The translations under genes and the position numbers were made by a program. Positions 35,090 through 41,801 of a stretch of 64,000 nt of DNA are shown here, piece by piece. Every line of letters begins with the position of its first letter. The stretch's first letter is position 1. The notes beneath the pieces were generated by a model, which saw nothing but the letters and a program-made list of their open reading frames with translations, was not told where the DNA came from and did no database searches. The DNA comes from Candidatus Nitrosotalea okcheonensis (GTDB taxonomy: Archaea > Thermoproteota > Nitrososphaeria > Nitrososphaerales > Nitrosopumilaceae): the NCBI RefSeq assembly GCF_900177045.1, contig NZ_LT841358.1, positions 17,073-81,072 of the forward strand, given 5' to 3'.

Positions 35090-35626
35090 CTAGTCATCAT
35101 CAAGTTCCTTGTCAATTTTATCCTTTAATGATTTGTATTTGTTGAATCGCTTGTTCCAATGCGAAAAGAAGCGGTATTCCTTTATTGCAATAACCAACAA
35201 AATTATTGCAAATACTATTGAAATTATTATGAATGTCTTCAATCCAAAAAATATAGGTCCTGTGTGAGATCTATCTCCTATGTGTGATATTGGTAATTCC
35301 TTGATTATTGTACCATTTTGATCCACAATCTGAATGTGCATTCCAGGCTTGTGATATATACTGCTAAATCTTTCTCCGCCTTGCTGCGATGATTCTAAAT
35401 GTTTTATGTCATAATCTGGGTGACCTAGTAAAACGCCTCCTAGTATAACGGCAACTGGTCCAAAAAGTAATGCGCTTGCAATAAAAATAAGAAATAACCT
35501 GCGCGAACTGTTAGTGTGAGACAAAAGTTCATCTAAAATTTTCAGAATATTTTCTGATTTTTTTTTCTCGTCTCTGTCAGATGGTGATACATTGTTTTCA
35601 GGTGAATTATTTTCGGGTTCTGACAT
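35090..35626 (-). CDS. Two-TM membrane protein, unknown
   Basis: Residues 1-40 are acidic/polar and probably cytoplasmic; helix one is LFLIFIASALLFGPVAVILGG, followed by a 55-residue outside loop (HPDYDIKHLESSQQGGERFS...), then helix two FIIISIVFAIILLVIAI and a basic tail. No family is recognised. It lies 37 bp downstream of the wHTH regulator gene on the same strand and may be its operon partner. Confidence 0.65.
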   Translation of the reverse strand: MSEPENNSPENNVSPSDRDEKKKSENILKILDELLSHTNSSRRLFLIFIASALLFGPVAVILGGVLLGHPDYDIKHLESSQQGGERFSSIYHKPGMHIQIVDQNGTIIKELPISHIGDRSHTGPIFFGLKTFIIISIVFAIILLVIAIKEYRFFSHWNKRFNKYKSLKDKIDKELDDD

Positions 35627-35663
35627 TTACTAAGAACACTCCTGTTGCATTAAAAATGCTTCG

Positions 35664-35969
35664 CTAACTTTGTTCTTGATCATGTTTTTCATGTCTTGGA
35701 AATATGTCCTCATACGGTTCTAATATCATCTTGCAAAATTCTCGTCCTTTCTGTGTCACTGCATATTTTATTATCTTCTTGTTTCCCCACGCCTGTTCTG
35801 TTCGCTTTATGAAACCCTTTCTCTCAAGACTCTCAAGAATGTCCTTATGCTTCATTAAATTCAAACCACAATAACTAAGAAGTGATGTCTGATTAAGTTC
35901 ACCATGTTCTGTTAATTTTAATATGATGTCTTTTCGTATGTACACTCGGTCTCTGTATTCATGTGACAA
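35664..35969 (-). CDS. Winged-helix transcription regulator
   Basis: The 101-aa protein is a single wHTH: RKDIILKLTEHGELNQTSLL, SYCGLNLMKHKDILESLERK, GFIKRTEQ, wing KKIIKYAVTQKGREF. This is the layout of archaeal PadR/DUF-type helix-turn-helix regulators (SSO-like 'winged helix' with VTQKG). Upstream, between this gene and the divergent PepSY gene, is the motif TAACAATGTTC (36065-36075), also found before two further genes, making this protein the best candidate to bind it. Confidence 0.82.
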   Translation of the reverse strand: MSHEYRDRVYIRKDIILKLTEHGELNQTSLLSYCGLNLMKHKDILESLERKGFIKRTEQAWGNKKIIKYAVTQKGREFCKMILEPYEDIFPRHEKHDQEQS

Positions 35970-36064: not shown

Positions 36065-36075
36065 TAACAATGTTC
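36065..36075 (+). promoter_or_regulatory. TAACAATGTTC motif, copy 1
   Basis: Identical 11-mer in the 150-bp space between the divergent wHTH and PepSY genes; it sits 55 bp before the PepSY start and about 95 bp before the regulator start. Two further copies at 36708 and 37597. An AT-rich TATTAAG box follows at 36098-36104. Confidence 0.55.
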
Positions 36076-36119
36076 ACTGACATAGTTTCGCAATTTTTTA
36101 TTAAGCAATTGTGGTATTG

Positions 36120-36638
36120 ATGGATATGAACACAACAGAACTAGTCAAGAATAAAAAGATGCTTGCTATAATAATTGGAGTAGCAATTCTTGCTACTGCA
36201 GGAGTGTCAGCAGCATCTGCACAAGTTTCACCAACATCAAGTCAGACCCCCACAATACAGGGCACAATCAACCTTCAGCAAACAATAATGTCTAACGTAA
36301 AGATTGCATTCCCTGATGCAGCAAATACTGCGGCAACAGCAGTAAGTGGAAAAGTGATAGGCGGAAGACTAACAGTGGCACAGGGATACGTAGTATACAG
36401 TTTCAAGGTGATTGATGACAAGAATATGGTATACACCGTAATTGTCGATCCATCAAGTGGAGCAGTATTGTACAAATCAACGGGTCGCCAGTTCGGAATG
36501 GGCGAATTTGGCATGGATCATGGACATATGATGCATGGACACATGGGTGAACAAGCATGGAACTCAAAGACTCCATCAGGAAACACAACTCCATCATCTG
36601 ACACGACAGCCCCAAGTGGATCACAATCCTGGTCCTAA
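36120..36638 (+). CDS. Secreted PepSY-domain protein with Met/His-rich tail
   Basis: From ATG 36120 the protein starts with a signal peptide (MLAIIIGVAILATAGVSAASA) and continues with a PepSY-like domain (NVKIAFPDAANTAATAVSGK, GYVVYSFKVIDDKNMVYTVI, VDPSSGAVLY). The C-terminus holds GMGEFGMDHGHMMHGHMGEQ, a likely metal-binding segment, then a Ser/Thr/Pro-rich linker. An extracytoplasmic copper or other metal-binding role is inferred. GTG 36111 is an alternative start. The motif TAACAATGTTC precedes it, and a T-rich terminator follows. Confidence 0.82.
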   Translation: MDMNTTELVKNKKMLAIIIGVAILATAGVSAASAQVSPTSSQTPTIQGTINLQQTIMSNVKIAFPDAANTAATAVSGKVIGGRLTVAQGYVVYSFKVIDDKNMVYTVIVDPSSGAVLYKSTGRQFGMGEFGMDHGHMMHGHMGEQAWNSKTPSGNTTPSSDTTAPSGSQSWS

Positions 36639-36640
36639 AC

Positions 36641-36660
36641 TCTTTTTTCCTTTTTATTTT
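36641..36660 (+). terminator. T-rich terminator after PepSY gene
   Basis: TCTTTTTTCCTTTTTATTTT begins 3 bp after the stop codon. Poly-T tracts without a required hairpin are the usual archaeal terminators. Confidence 0.6.
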
Positions 36661-36694
36661 AATTGATGATTTTTTAAAAGAATCGTTTCATCAC

Positions 36695-36718
36695 GAACAT
36701 TGTTAAGTAACAATGTTT
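36695..36718. promoter_or_regulatory. Palindromic double TAACAATGTT site, copy 2
   Basis: GAACATTGTTA and TAACAATGTTT face each other around a 2-bp centre (AG), a near-perfect 24-bp palindrome containing the same motif as copies 1 and 3. It lies 37 bp before the DUF6659-like gene. This is the strongest operator-like site of the three. Confidence 0.65.
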
Positions 36719-36754
36719 GATAATTGTTTTAACTGCAGTAACTAGTCCAAATGT

Positions 36755-37213
36755 GTGCAAATTGGATTGAAATCACTTCAAAACTTTGAAAGCGGATCGC
36801 ATTCCCCAGAAATATTCGAGCCTGTTTGTAACATGATCCTCAACTTGGATTCTAATATTCGATTTGTTGGGGTGATGAACAATAAAGGTAAACTGCTTAC
36901 TGCAAGTGTGAAAAAAGGAGTACGTACTTTTATTACTCCACAAGATCAGGAAATGCTACTCATGGAGATTGCACTGGGTGTGCGAATGCGTAAGGAACAT
37001 GATCCACAGTTGGGACCTGTAAATTTCACTATCTCATATGGTCACAAGATGGTATCCATGAATTTTCCACTGGACGATGAAATACTATGTGTCTCTGCGG
37101 AAAAAAAGATTGATCTTGTAGCAATACCGTTTCTAATATTACAACTTTTAGAAGCAGAATTGCATAAAAAAGAAGTTGATGATAAAAAGAATTTGGAACA
37201 GGAACATGTCTGA
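36755..37213 (+). CDS. DUF6659-like protein, 152 aa
   Basis: Related to the gene at 44874: both have an N-terminal helix, then a F-V-x-V-x-N-x-K-G-x strand (FVGVMNNKGKLL), a helix with QEMLLMEIALGVRMRKEHD and a late V-x-x-N-F/V strand. The family appears restricted to this archaeal group as far as I know; the number DUF6659 is from memory. Function unknown; the fold may be roadblock/profilin-like. The start is GTG 36755, uncertain. A palindromic operator lies upstream. Confidence 0.6.
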   Translation: MQIGLKSLQNFESGSHSPEIFEPVCNMILNLDSNIRFVGVMNNKGKLLTASVKKGVRTFITPQDQEMLLMEIALGVRMRKEHDPQLGPVNFTISYGHKMVSMNFPLDDEILCVSAEKKIDLVAIPFLILQLLEAELHKKEVDDKKNLEQEHV

Positions 37214-37378
37214 CAAAACTGAATTTCAAATGTGTGGAATGTATATGATGTCATATGATCATGTAATGTTGGAGATCCGCTTCAAATCGGTACATTATTC
37301 ACAATGTACTGGATTTTGGCATAAATGGTATTGAGAAAGCTAATTTCATGCACCACAATTTTTGGCAGTGATTTTCAT

Positions 37379-37543
37379 ATGATGCAGATTAGACTAGAAC
37401 CAAGAGATGTTGCAAGATTAAGTTCGCTTGGTAATAATGTATGCAGAAAATGTACTATGAAATTAATGGAAGGAGATGTTGTAATACGAATTGGGGCAAG
37501 ACCTCCAAAATATTATCATAAAGGATGTTTCAAGGTGTATTGA
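37379..37543 (+). CDS. Small zinc-binding protein, 54 aa
   Basis: From the double ATG at 37379/37382 the protein reads MMQIRLEPRDVARLSSLGNN and contains CRKCTMKL followed by YYHKGCFKVY. The CxxC...HxxC arrangement is a likely treble-clef or LIM-like zinc site. The longer frame to 37325 has an unlikely N-terminus. I know no family name. It stands alone between the DUF6659-like gene and the ABC operon. Confidence 0.55.
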   Translation: MMQIRLEPRDVARLSSLGNNVCRKCTMKLMEGDVVIRIGARPPKYYHKGCFKVY

Positions 37544-37596
37544 GTAGTTGGTGACACAAGAACATCTGATTTTTCTACGCATCTGATCCTACTCAC

Positions 37597-37607
37597 TAAC
37601 AATGTTC
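37597..37607 (+). promoter_or_regulatory. TAACAATGTTC motif, copy 3
   Basis: Identical to copy 1 and to the right arm of copy 2, 140 bp before the ABC ATPase start. It is followed by CTGAACAAGG, which may be a weak second half-site. Confidence 0.5.
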
Positions 37608-37746
37608 CTGAACAAGGTTTGGCAATCGTTTTATTCTAAAAACTAGACAAAGAATTTCATATGGTTCTTTCAAACATATGGAATTCACATAATGATTATT
37701 TTCATGCATATGAAACTCAAATAGATGAGTTCTAAAGAAGAAAAAA

Positions 37747-38502
37747 ATGATCTTGAAAAACATGACAAAAGATTTGGTAGTTGAAAAAAGCACACAGAAC
37801 GAAGTTGTCAACAACAACTCTTTTGCTCTGAGAGTAGAAAATCTTTCTAAGATATATGATTCTTCTGCGGGACGAGTTGTGGCACTAGACAATGTAAGCT
37901 TTGCAATCAAAAAGGGAGAATTTGTATCGGTTGTAGGCCCATCTGGTAGTGGCAAGTCTACTGTTTTGAATATGGTTGGAGCACTTGATAGGCCAACAAG
38001 TGGGAAGATCTACATCGATGGCATAGACGTATTTTCTCTTAATGATTCTGAAATTGCCACCATGAGAAATGGTCGTATTGGATTTATCTTCCAGTCGTTT
38101 AATTTGATTAATAGGACTACTGTCCACAAAAATGTAAGACTGCCTGGGATGATTGCAGGTATGTCAAATGACGATGTAAATTCTCGCACCATGAAGATCT
38201 TGGAAGCCCTTGGTATTGCTGACAAGAGGGATCAAAAACCTGTCAATCTAAGTGGTGGACAGCAACAAAGAGTCGCAATAGCTCGTTCTTTGATAAACAA
38301 TCCAACCATAATTTTGGCAGATGAACCAACTGGTAACTTGGATACGAAAACAGGTGATGATGTATTTGACATGTTGAAAATGCTTTCACATAAATTCAAA
38401 CGTACTATAGTAATGGTAACACACAATCCTGAACTTGCCGAGTCTACGGATAGATCTATATTGTTAAGAGATGGGAGAATAGAAAAAAATGTCATCAACT
38501 AG
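37747..38502 (+). CDS. ABC transporter ATP-binding protein (MacB/LolD type)
   Basis: The 251-aa ATPase has Walker A GPSGSGKST (64-72), Q-loop FIFQSFNLINRTT, signature [16 protein letters not shown] and Walker B ILADEPTGNLDTKTGDDVF, the version typical of MacB/LolD ATPases. It works with the FtsX-type permease at 40563. Its 3' end overlaps the large exported-protein gene by 14 bp, so the three genes make one operon, probably under the motif at 37597. Confidence 0.93.
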   Translation: MILKNMTKDLVVEKSTQNEVVNNNSFALRVENLSKIYDSSAGRVVALDNVSFAIKKGEFVSVVGPSGSGKSTVLNMVGALDRPTSGKIYIDGIDVFSLNDSEIATMRNGRIGFIFQSFNLINRTTVHKNVRLPGMIAGMSNDDVNSRTMKILEALGIADKRDQKPVNLSGGQQQRVAIARSLINNPTIILADEPTGNLDTKTGDDVFDMLKMLSHKFKRTIVMVTHNPELAESTDRSILLRDGRIEKNVIN

Positions 38503-40573
38503 AATTTCTGTTAAAAAGTTTTTTGGGAAAAGAATAGCAATCAAAATTGCAATTCCAATTTTAATTGTAATGTTGTTTGCACCTACTACAATCACATCTT
38601 TTAATGCATATGGACAAGTGGTCACAGTGGTACCATCTGACAATGGTCATCTGGGAATAGTACAATCACAGGATTGTTTCGCACCCCTTACTACAATACT
38701 TGATGCCACTTATTCTGGTCCTGTAGTAGTGGACTCATATTGGGTGGACCAAGGGACATCGTCTTCCACCGATATTACTAGTAATCCTGTCAAAAAAGAG
38801 ATAGGTCCAGGAGAAGGACCATCTGTTTTTGCTGTAGTCCTTAACAATAGAGGAACAGCATATTCTATAACTTCGATCACTGCATTTCTTAATCTTCCAT
38901 CAGGATTTGCGGCCACTGGTGAAAGCAAAAATCCACAATTACTTCAAAATTATAATCAAGCATCAAGAGTTGCAAATAATCCTGCAATAGGAAACTACTA
39001 TGGCCAAGTGGCACCAGGTGCATCATTTACTATGTATTTTAACATAGATGTATTACCGACAGCCAAAGTAGGCACTTTTTCTACAACCGTTGTTGCAAAT
39101 TATGTCCAAGTGGGAGTAGTTGGACAACAATGTACATCTGCATTGCTCAATGTACCGTTTGTTCTTCCAGGAAAAGTGATATTGGATGCATCAACCGTAT
39201 CTTCCAATCTTGCTCCTCAAACCAATGATCCGGTTTCGATAGAAATTGACAACAAAGGTTCCGCTGATGCAACTGGAGTTGTAGCAACAATTGTGGATCT
39301 TGGAAATTCTAAAGGCAGTTCGGGAAGTAGCAGTAGCTCAGGATCTGTTGTGCTACAATCATCTACGACACAAATTGTTAATCTTGGACCGAACACTTTC
39401 AATATAGGTACAATACCTGCAAAATCAAAAGCGGTAATAAGTACAACAGTTTACCCTGGTACAGCTGCAAGTGGTTCTACTCAGCAGGTTACACTTCAAA
39501 TAAATTATCAAAATGCATGGGGTAAACTTTTGACTAGCACAATTAATACGGGGCTTGTCATAGCACCCAATCCTCCACAGTCTCTTAACTTGTCATATCT
39601 TGGAAATACTACAACTCCTGTAATCACTGCATCCATGCTAGATGATCTGAATTTTGCAGTTGCAAACAACAGTACTGATACAATGTCCAATATTGTAATC
39701 TCTCTTGTACCGCAATCAACTTCGGTCTCTGTAGTGGGTCCCTCTACTTGGACAATACAGAACTTGACACCCGGTGAAAGACAGGTACTCACAACTAGAG
39801 TGTATGCTGCAAACACTTTGATTGCCACCCCTACTTCTTTTACATTAACCGCCACATATGTCTCAAAAGGTCAATCACAAACAAATTCTCTTACTCTGGG
39901 AACTTTTGTTGTTGGTGATATACGACTTCAAATTTATGATCTCTCGCTGACTACCTCTGGTGGTACCTCTAGCCTTGTTGGCAATTTACTTAATCAGGGC
40001 AGTACGACTGCATTATTTACTACTGCACAACTTGCACCTTCTCAACTCACAAGTGCAATGAAAGCTGCGAGAATGACAAACTTTACAAATAACACTGGAT
40101 CTAATGGTGACAATCCAGGTCAAGGTGGTCAGGGATTCCACGGTGGTCAGGGACGTAATGGTCCGGGTGGATCAAGTTTAACGCAACAATTCATAGGAGA
40201 TCTCTCACCTGATTCTCCAATTCCAATTAGTATACCCATTAGAGGAATCAATTACTTGTCATCAGGAATGTATCATGTAGTATTCAAAGTAACATATGCT
40301 GATGACTTGAAGAATTTTCATACCGTCCTAGTGAATGGAACAGTCAATATTGTGCGTAGTCCTCCGGTTAATATCTCTACAAACCAACATACTTTGATTG
40401 ACAGTATTCCTCTACCCATACTTATTGGAGCACCAATTGCAGTTGTAGCAGCAATTGTCTTTCTAGTAAAAAGAAAAAAATCAGAAAAGAAAAAATTGAA
40501 ATTGTTGACACAGGGAGACACTGACATCATCTCAATATTTGACAGCACAAAAAAGAAAGAAAATGAATCCTAA
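38489..40573 (+). CDS. Large exported protein of the ABC operon (S-layer/CARDB-like)
   Basis: The 694-aa protein starts with a basic stretch and hydrophobic signal (AIKIAIPILIVMLFAPTTIT), continues through repeated beta-sandwich-like segments rich in S, T, N and V (COG1361-type), has a glycine-rich stretch near 545-560 (GQGGQGFHGGQGRNGPGG), and ends with a membrane helix (PLPILIGAPIAVVAAIVFLV) and a lysine-rich tail. It is probably anchored outside the cell and presents cargo to, or is moved by, the ABC pair. It is not a MacA/HlyD-type adaptor. Confidence 0.78.
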   Translation: MSSTRISVKKFFGKRIAIKIAIPILIVMLFAPTTITSFNAYGQVVTVVPSDNGHLGIVQSQDCFAPLTTILDATYSGPVVVDSYWVDQGTSSSTDITSNPVKKEIGPGEGPSVFAVVLNNRGTAYSITSITAFLNLPSGFAATGESKNPQLLQNYNQASRVANNPAIGNYYGQVAPGASFTMYFNIDVLPTAKVGTFSTTVVANYVQVGVVGQQCTSALLNVPFVLPGKVILDASTVSSNLAPQTNDPVSIEIDNKGSADATGVVATIVDLGNSKGSSGSSSSSGSVVLQSSTTQIVNLGPNTFNIGTIPAKSKAVISTTVYPGTAASGSTQQVTLQINYQNAWGKLLTSTINTGLVIAPNPPQSLNLSYLGNTTTPVITASMLDDLNFAVANNSTDTMSNIVISLVPQSTSVSVVGPSTWTIQNLTPGERQVLTTRVYAANTLIATPTSFTLTATYVSKGQSQTNSLTLGTFVVGDIRLQIYDLSLTTSGGTSSLVGNLLNQGSTTALFTTAQLAPSQLTSAMKAARMTNFTNNTGSNGDNPGQGGQGFHGGQGRNGPGGSSLTQQFIGDLSPDSPIPISIPIRGINYLSSGMYHVVFKVTYADDLKNFHTVLVNGTVNIVRSPPVNISTNQHTLIDSIPLPILIGAPIAVVAAIVFLVKRKKSEKKKLKLLTQGDTDIISIFDSTKKKENES

Positions 40574-41801
40574 AGATCTTTTCTTGTTGTCATTTGAGGC
40601 ACTAGTTGACAGAAAGGTGAGAACACTTCTTACTATTCTGATGGTTGTGCTTGGAAGCAGTCTTGTTGTTGTATTGAATGGTTTGAGTGCTGGTCAAGCC
40701 GCATTCTTGGAAAAACAATTCAATACTTTGGCTGCTAATGTTATTTTTGTAAGCAGCGGACAACGTGGATTTCGAGATGCTTCAGCAGGAAATGCTCTGA
40801 TAATTAATAATGTCATTATTGAAAAAATGAAATCCCTACCATTGATATCTGATGTAATACCTGAATATGCTGGTTCAATAACGATGAATTCGCAAGGAAA
40901 CACTGAACGAGCGTCTGTCATTTCAATTGATCCAACAAAATTGTCTGTGGTGTTGCCTAATCTTGAATATGTTGATGGTTCTACAGTAAAACCAAACGAT
41001 CGATCCTCTGCTATTGTGGGAGATACCATAGTAAATCCCCCTGGTGCTGACAATGCCTTTGTTACACTTGGCCAGACTATTGTAGCTACATCTACATATT
41101 CCGATGGAGCTGGAAAGACAGTAACAGTAACGAAGAATTTTGTAATTTCTGGAATTTTAAAACCATCTGGTAATAGTAGGATAGATAATTCGGTTATCAT
41201 TAATCTTGATGCAGGAAACGATCTGTTGCACAAGCTAAACAAATATGATAGTGTAATAGTTGCAGCAACAACTCCAGATGATGTTGATGCCGTACAGCAA
41301 GAATTGACATCTACATTTGGAAAAACTCTTGGATCTACAACACCAAAAGCAATTATGGCGGTAAGACAGCAAGCTGCAAGTGGTAACGCTGCCTTTATTC
41401 TAATGGTTGGAATTATTGCACTTGTTGTAGGTGCAGTTGGTATTGTTACTACTTTGTATAATTCAGTCACAGAAAGGATTAGGGAAATAGGTACCATGAA
41501 AGCAATAGGCGCACAAAATACTACAATTCTCGCACTTTTTCTGGTGGAAGCAGCTTTGATAGGGATAATAGGTGCTTCATTGGGGTTGCTCATAGGTATT
41601 GGTGGAGGCTATATCATGAGTATTGCAACAACAACTTCTCCTGCGGGAGGAGGTCCAGCAGTGCATATACCTCCAATCTTTATCCCAATGGATTTGATCA
41701 AAGCCTGGCTCCTTTCTTTGTCACTAAGTGTTGTAGCTGGAATGTATCCTGCATGGAAAGCATCACAGTTGTCTCCAATGGTTGCACTGAGAAGAGAATG
41801 A
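40563..41801 (+). CDS. ABC transporter permease, FtsX/MacB type
   Basis: About 412 aa from ATG 40563, which overlaps the previous stop; the frame also opens at TTG 40539. Topology follows MacB: helix one TLLTILMVVLGSSLVVVL, a large extracytoplasmic domain of about 220 residues (residues 40-265), then three helices (FILMVGIIALVVGAVGIVT, LFLVEAALIGIIGASLGLLIGIG, LLSLSLSVVAGMYPAWKA) with the FtsX motif ERIREIGTMKAIGA. MacB-type systems extract or export lipids, lipoproteins or toxins; substrate here is unknown. Confidence 0.92.
   Translation: MNPKDLFLLSFEALVDRKVRTLLTILMVVLGSSLVVVLNGLSAGQAAFLEKQFNTLAANVIFVSSGQRGFRDASAGNALIINNVIIEKMKSLPLISDVIPEYAGSITMNSQGNTERASVISIDPTKLSVVLPNLEYVDGSTVKPNDRSSAIVGDTIVNPPGADNAFVTLGQTIVATSTYSDGAGKTVTVTKNFVISGILKPSGNSRIDNSVIINLDAGNDLLHKLNKYDSVIVAATTPDDVDAVQQELTSTFGKTLGSTTPKAIMAVRQQAASGNAAFILMVGIIALVVGAVGIVTTLYNSVTERIREIGTMKAIGAQNTTILALFLVEAALIGIIGASLGLLIGIGGGYIMSIATTTSPAGGGPAVHIPPIFIPMDLIKAWLLSLSLSVVAGMYPAWKASQLSPMVALRRE

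Follow-up and report, generated by a model that had tools for sequence, protein, structure and literature searches.

A TATA-phased tandem palindrome shared by scattered promoters of Candidatus Nitrosotalea, and a linked wHTH protein as its candidate regulator

Introduction

Three copies of one 11-mer lie within 1.5 kb of the chromosome of Candidatus Nitrosotalea okcheonensis. Do they mark a shared control element, and which protein would bind it? The copies were noted in a 64,000-nt stretch of this genome (hereafter, the window), for which a first-pass annotation proposed a local regulon made up of a PepSY gene, a DUF6659-like gene and an ABC operon, with the divergent wHTH gene as the natural source of the binding protein. 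Candidatus Nitrosotalea are acid-soil ammonia-oxidising archaea, and the relatives compared here include N. devanaterra and N. bavarica.

Results

The 11-mer forms one half of a TATA-phased 22-bp element

The exact 11-mer TAACAATGTTC was confirmed at 36065–36075 (+), 37597–37607 (+) and 36695–36705 (−), the last accompanied by a partner with one mismatch at 36708–36718 (+). As the first-pass annotation had stated, the 24-mer at 36695–36718 is a near-palindrome (20 of 24 positions match its own reverse complement), the three sites are all intergenic and upstream of the PepSY, DUF6659 and ABC ATPase genes, and the window holds no further exact copy. With one mismatch allowed, the window contained 8 copies in total against 2.9 expected, a number reached in 1 of 100 shuffles. 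Across the whole genome (1,972,585 bases [1.97 Mb], one contig), TAACAATGTTC occurred 6 times against 10 times for the reversed control, showing no enrichment. Because this count is at background level, the 11-mer alone means little, and it was rejected as the regulatory unit.

The three closely spaced copies nevertheless led to a larger unit, a 22-bp control element of which TAACAATGTTC is half. The element is the 22-mer AACANTGTT-N4-AACANTGTT, that is, two palindromic 9-mers AACAnTGTT placed 13 bp apart, and it lies directly upstream of the BRE/TATA (Table 1). In the same genome, the 22-mer had 3 sites at ≤1 mismatch and its reversed control had none; the composite site, defined as the 22-bp element plus AA and the TATA positions, had 10 at ≤3 mismatches, again with none for the control. 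A literature text search for AACAATGTT returned only unrelated papers among the matches listed.

Phasing was examined in 60 independent sites, which were gathered by the 22-mer alone and from which similar ones were then removed. In 45 of the 60, a TATA word was found 9–10 bp past the element to one side only; no site had TATA words at this distance on both sides. The element thus stands at a constant distance upstream of BRE/TATA, as expected of an archaeal upstream-activator motif.

Table 1. Features of the locus in the window (nt positions)
Feature	Position	Strand	Remarks
2-TM protein, directly after wHTH gene	35090..35626	−	no family match
Single-unit version of the element (AACAAAGTT-AGCGAAGCA-TTTTT), 2-TM promoter	35652..35674	−	overlaps wHTH gene 3' end
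Candidate wHTH regulator, 101 aa	35664..35969	−	HTH_45 (PF14947), 31.6 bits, above Pfam gathering score 25.5
22-bp element 1 (AACAATGTTCACTGACATAGTT), PepSY promoter	36066..36087	+	2 mismatches; starts 60 bp before ATG 36126
PepSY promoter TATA region (TTTTTTATTA)	36094..36103	+	preceded by BRE-like TCGCAA
PepSY-domain secreted protein, Met/His/Gly-rich tail	36126..36638	+	PF03413, 24.2 bits (cut-off 24)
22-bp element 2 (AACATTGTTAAGTAACAATGTT), DUF6659 promoter	36696..36717	+	0 mismatches; 59 bp before GTG 36755
DUF6659 promoter BRE/TATA region TGATAATTGTTTTAAC	36718..36733	+	
DUF6659 protein	36755..37213	+	DUF6659, 39.4 bits (cut-off 27)
22-bp element 3 (AACAATGTTCCTGAACAAGGTT), ABC operon promoter	37598..37619	+	1 mismatch
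ABC operon promoter BRE/TATA region TGGCAATCGTTTTATTC	37620..37636	+	
24-codon leader ORF (MVLSNIWNSHNDYFHAYETQIDEF), ABC operon 5' leader	37661..37735	+	starts ~60 bp past ABC element
ABC transporter ATPase (LolD/MacB-like)	37747..38502	+	ABC_tran, 124.6
694-aa surface protein, ABC operon	38489..40573	+	no family match
FtsX/MacB-type permease, ABC operon	40539..41801	+	

The element is conserved before the same genes

The 22-mer was present at ≤1 mismatch in 33 of 37 Candidatus Nitrosotalea genomes, and the composite at ≤2 mismatches in 36 of 37; several sites were also found in the sister genus (G235–G237). For N. devanaterra, predicted sites are at G002:C1 431094, 431745, 432717, 606745 and 1095335. 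Spacing was taken from the loci around the wHTH gene. In relatives, the element started 59–66 bp before the PepSY start codon at most loci (59–72 bp overall) and 59–60 bp before that of DUF6659; this spacing suggests leaderless transcripts. For the ABC ATPase, it started 130–147 bp ahead of the start codon in the main species group, and the ABC operon would have a 5' leader of ~90 nt. In a second species group the ABC site lay farther upstream, adjoining the wHTH gene. The element was thus kept at the corresponding promoters of PepSY, DUF6659 and ABC, as expected of a single regulon, and the constant start-codon distance strongly supports a regulatory element common to the three. The first-pass annotation had named two results that would count against it, frequent occurrence at random positions and absence from the same promoters in relatives; the 22-bp element showed neither.

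The regulon did not prove to be local, since genes elsewhere in the genome also have the element. One site (292226) precedes an Ig-repeat surface protein (Big_3_5) and another (898885) a second HTH_45 protein; weaker sites precede a 76-aa protein (165620–165655, minus strand) and a 73-aa membrane protein (864082). Grouped by downstream gene, 145 distinct composite sites (with partial redundancy between loci) gave clusters for the ABC ATPase (32), PepSY (22), the second wHTH (16), DUF6659 (15), the Ig-repeat protein (14), an ORF in the ABC leader of the second species group (11) and the 2-TM protein (10). The targets are for the most part secreted or membrane proteins. The ABC operon proteins scored highest, below cut-off, to LolD and MacB/LolCE models. 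The Met/His/Gly-rich tail of PepSY is kept in relatives; its composition permits the metal role hinted at in the first-pass annotation and is only suggestive of one.

Small ORFs also occur near these sites. Relatives in the main group have an ORF of ~18–28 codons similar to the leader ORF in Table 1; it often terminates with (I)DEF and runs over the start of the ABC ATPase gene. In several relatives, a conserved 41-aa protein (MNRKCSMIAAYIMMLIVPFSGDIFSAAAQMTVKTVVPIISG) lies 60 bp past a composite site (L162, 1630–1759; L066, L072 and L033, minus strand); it was not seen at the corresponding place in the window genome. A protein of 54 aa bearing a CxxC...H..C pattern (37379–37543) is encoded in the window after DUF6659 and ahead of the ABC operon; it has neither an element of its own nor a family match.

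The element is linked to a wHTH gene

The protein encoded at 35664–35969 scored below the cut-offs of related families: 30.1 bits for Sso10a NF053610 (NCBIfam curated cut-off 60), 17.1 for PadR PF03551 and 19.1 for MarR PF01047 (Pfam gathering scores 27 and 24.6). Its predicted structure is a winged helix with PadR/MarR-like neighbours (Z up to 12.4), which indicates likeness of fold only; Sso10a-2 (4hw0, Z 11.5) is also among the structural neighbours. In a PDB sequence search all matches were weak, the best having E 0.008. Identity was 73–100% across 23 aligned relatives, and Cys33, in SYCGLN, was invariant among the 23; a redox role for this residue is conceivable.

An ortholog was found in ~34 of the 37 Candidatus Nitrosotalea genomes, with sites close by in most. 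Two genomes had sites and no detected ortholog (G010 and G036, 84% and 78% complete). A truncated wHTH gene in G006 was considered as a loss fitting the few sites of that genome, and this was rejected because the gene runs into a contig end (L188). In Nitrosotalea sp. FS (G009; L179) the wHTH gene contains in-frame stops, and in Nitrosotalea sp. TS (G008) a second wHTH copy is broken (G008:C3:26738-27036); both may be assembly errors.

Outside Candidatus Nitrosotalea and its sister genus, ten genomes had one composite site each, and 7 of these 10 lone sites lay 0.1–0.6 kb from a wHTH homologue (G058, G081, G125, G149, G153, G171 and G221). Assuming a chance of 0.002 per genome, which is our own estimate, the probability of such proximity is ~1e-17; treating the four genomes that share a genus as a single case gives 6e-10. 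The gene behind the lone site varied, being ABC in G058, PepSY-like in G221 and other secreted proteins in G081 and G125, which indicates that the site tracks the wHTH gene more than any single target. Furthermore, outside the genus, sites were present in 11 of the 70 genomes that have a wHTH homologue and in 3 of the 143 that lack one (Fisher p 0.0004, a statistic that ignores relatedness). By this genomic association, inside and outside the genus, the divergent wHTH remains the best candidate binder, as first suggested; a conserved neighbourhood alone could also hold site and gene together.

The same association bears on whether any dedicated regulator is needed. The element abuts BRE/TATA at constant spacing, as might part of the core promoter itself, for example an extended BRE for an alternative TFB. 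However, each genome has this 22-bp near-palindrome at only a handful of promoters, and its presence tracks the wHTH gene with the above reservation about relatedness; we regard a core-promoter feature as highly improbable.

Binding by another regulator, for example the second HTH_45 protein (G000:898944), also appears quite improbable. Its own promoter has a composite site, as expected of an autoregulated factor, and the offset was 59 in 15 of the 16 clustered sites. Against this, in at least 12 genomes where the element is retained, the closest homologues of the second wHTH share just ~31–57% identity with it, and the lone sites outside the genus adjoin homologues of the 35664 wHTH instead. 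The second wHTH would thus be a weaker candidate than the 35664 wHTH. A separate paralogous wHTH (57% identical; L219 2199-2893, G000:C1 near 686207) adjoins a convergent 2-TM-like protein gene, and the sites near it are no better than 4 mismatches.

A putative membrane partner is encoded after the wHTH gene

Nearly all loci, among them those of two Nitrososphaera/Nitrososphaeraceae MAGs, have the 2-TM gene next after the wHTH gene, so that the HTH_45/2-TM pair is conserved beyond the family. The assignment of two transmembrane helices and of the topology draws on the sequence and on a model of low confidence (mean pLDDT 59). The 2-TM promoter has one unit at unchanged spacing in several genera. 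In Nitrosotalea this unit precedes the wHTH stop codon, whereas in other genera it comes after that codon; therefore, coding constraint is not the explanation. The predicted extracellular loop is almost missing in distant members, indicating that a loop-based sensor would not be general.

Discussion

We consider it probable that the 22-bp element serves as operator for a single regulon, which would span Candidatus Nitrosotalea and the sister genus, and that the 35664–35969 wHTH most likely binds it and activates mostly surface-related targets. The wHTH would bind both AACAnTGTT units just upstream of BRE/TATA and, from this phased position, help TFB or TBP to load, so that it would act as an activator. 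Its targets would be mostly at the cell surface: PepSY, DUF6659, the LolCDE/MacB-like ABC operon, the Ig-repeat protein and the second wHTH. The co-encoded 2-TM protein, with one unit in its own promoter, is a likely membrane partner, and the signal may be surface-related.

Could the wHTH instead repress, by blocking TFB access at the BRE until released by a signal relayed via the 2-TM protein? Its predicted fold is PadR/MarR-like, and many proteins of this fold are repressors; the element also ends only a few bases ahead of the BRE, where a bound protein might repress by steric hindrance. However, the strict 9–10 bp phasing better suits protein contacts, and in the archaeal cases compared repressor motifs overlap or follow BRE/TATA whereas activator motifs lie upstream. 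On balance, repression seems unlikely. Work on other archaea (PMC4158304; PMC5512572; PMC9426492) associates activation with a motif placed upstream of BRE/TATA and repression with one placed downstream; together with the strict phasing, this makes an activator the most likely role for the wHTH.

Known systems resemble this arrangement in part. The Thermococcales glycolytic motif of TrmBL1/Tgr is likewise a palindrome common to scattered promoters that activates from upstream of BRE/TATA; however, it is TATCAC-N5-GTGATA rather than tandem AACAnTGTT units, and its regulator is a sugar-sensing TrmB rather than an HTH_45 protein without a known effector domain (PMC4158304). At the fla promoter of Methanococcus maripaludis, short repeated boxes directly upstream of the BRE are bound by the activator EarA, but these are four 6-bp boxes at one operon, whereas the present element stands at several promoters (PMC5512572). 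TFB-RF1 of Pyrococcus furiosus binds upstream of BRE/TATA and activates its own operon and an ABC transporter operon; it is another protein, and here there are a membrane-protein partner and more targets (PMC5937170). OxsR of Haloferax volcanii is also a small single-wHTH regulator with an activating motif upstream of BRE/TATA, but it belongs to the TrmB family and its sensor Cys24 is at the dimer interface, whereas the invariant Cys33 of the 35664 wHTH is in the HTH region (PMC9426492). The HTH_45 match and the structural likeness to Sso10a-2 recall the Sso10a/HTH_45 proteins; the 35664 wHTH differs in falling below the curated Sso10a cut-off and in being tied to specific operators. Our literature searches turned up no account of a transcription-factor regulon or operator in ammonia-oxidising archaea.

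More tentatively, the locus may encode a membrane-coupled one-component system, in which the HTH_45/2-TM pair would report the state of the cell surface and set a regulon of surface proteins and an ABC exporter through TATA-phased tandem palindromes; we offer this as a possibility to which we give less than even weight. The operator is defined, the candidate regulator named and the target list short, and they occur also in cultured strains such as N. devanaterra, so that a putative surface-control circuit of acid-soil nitrifiers becomes directly testable.
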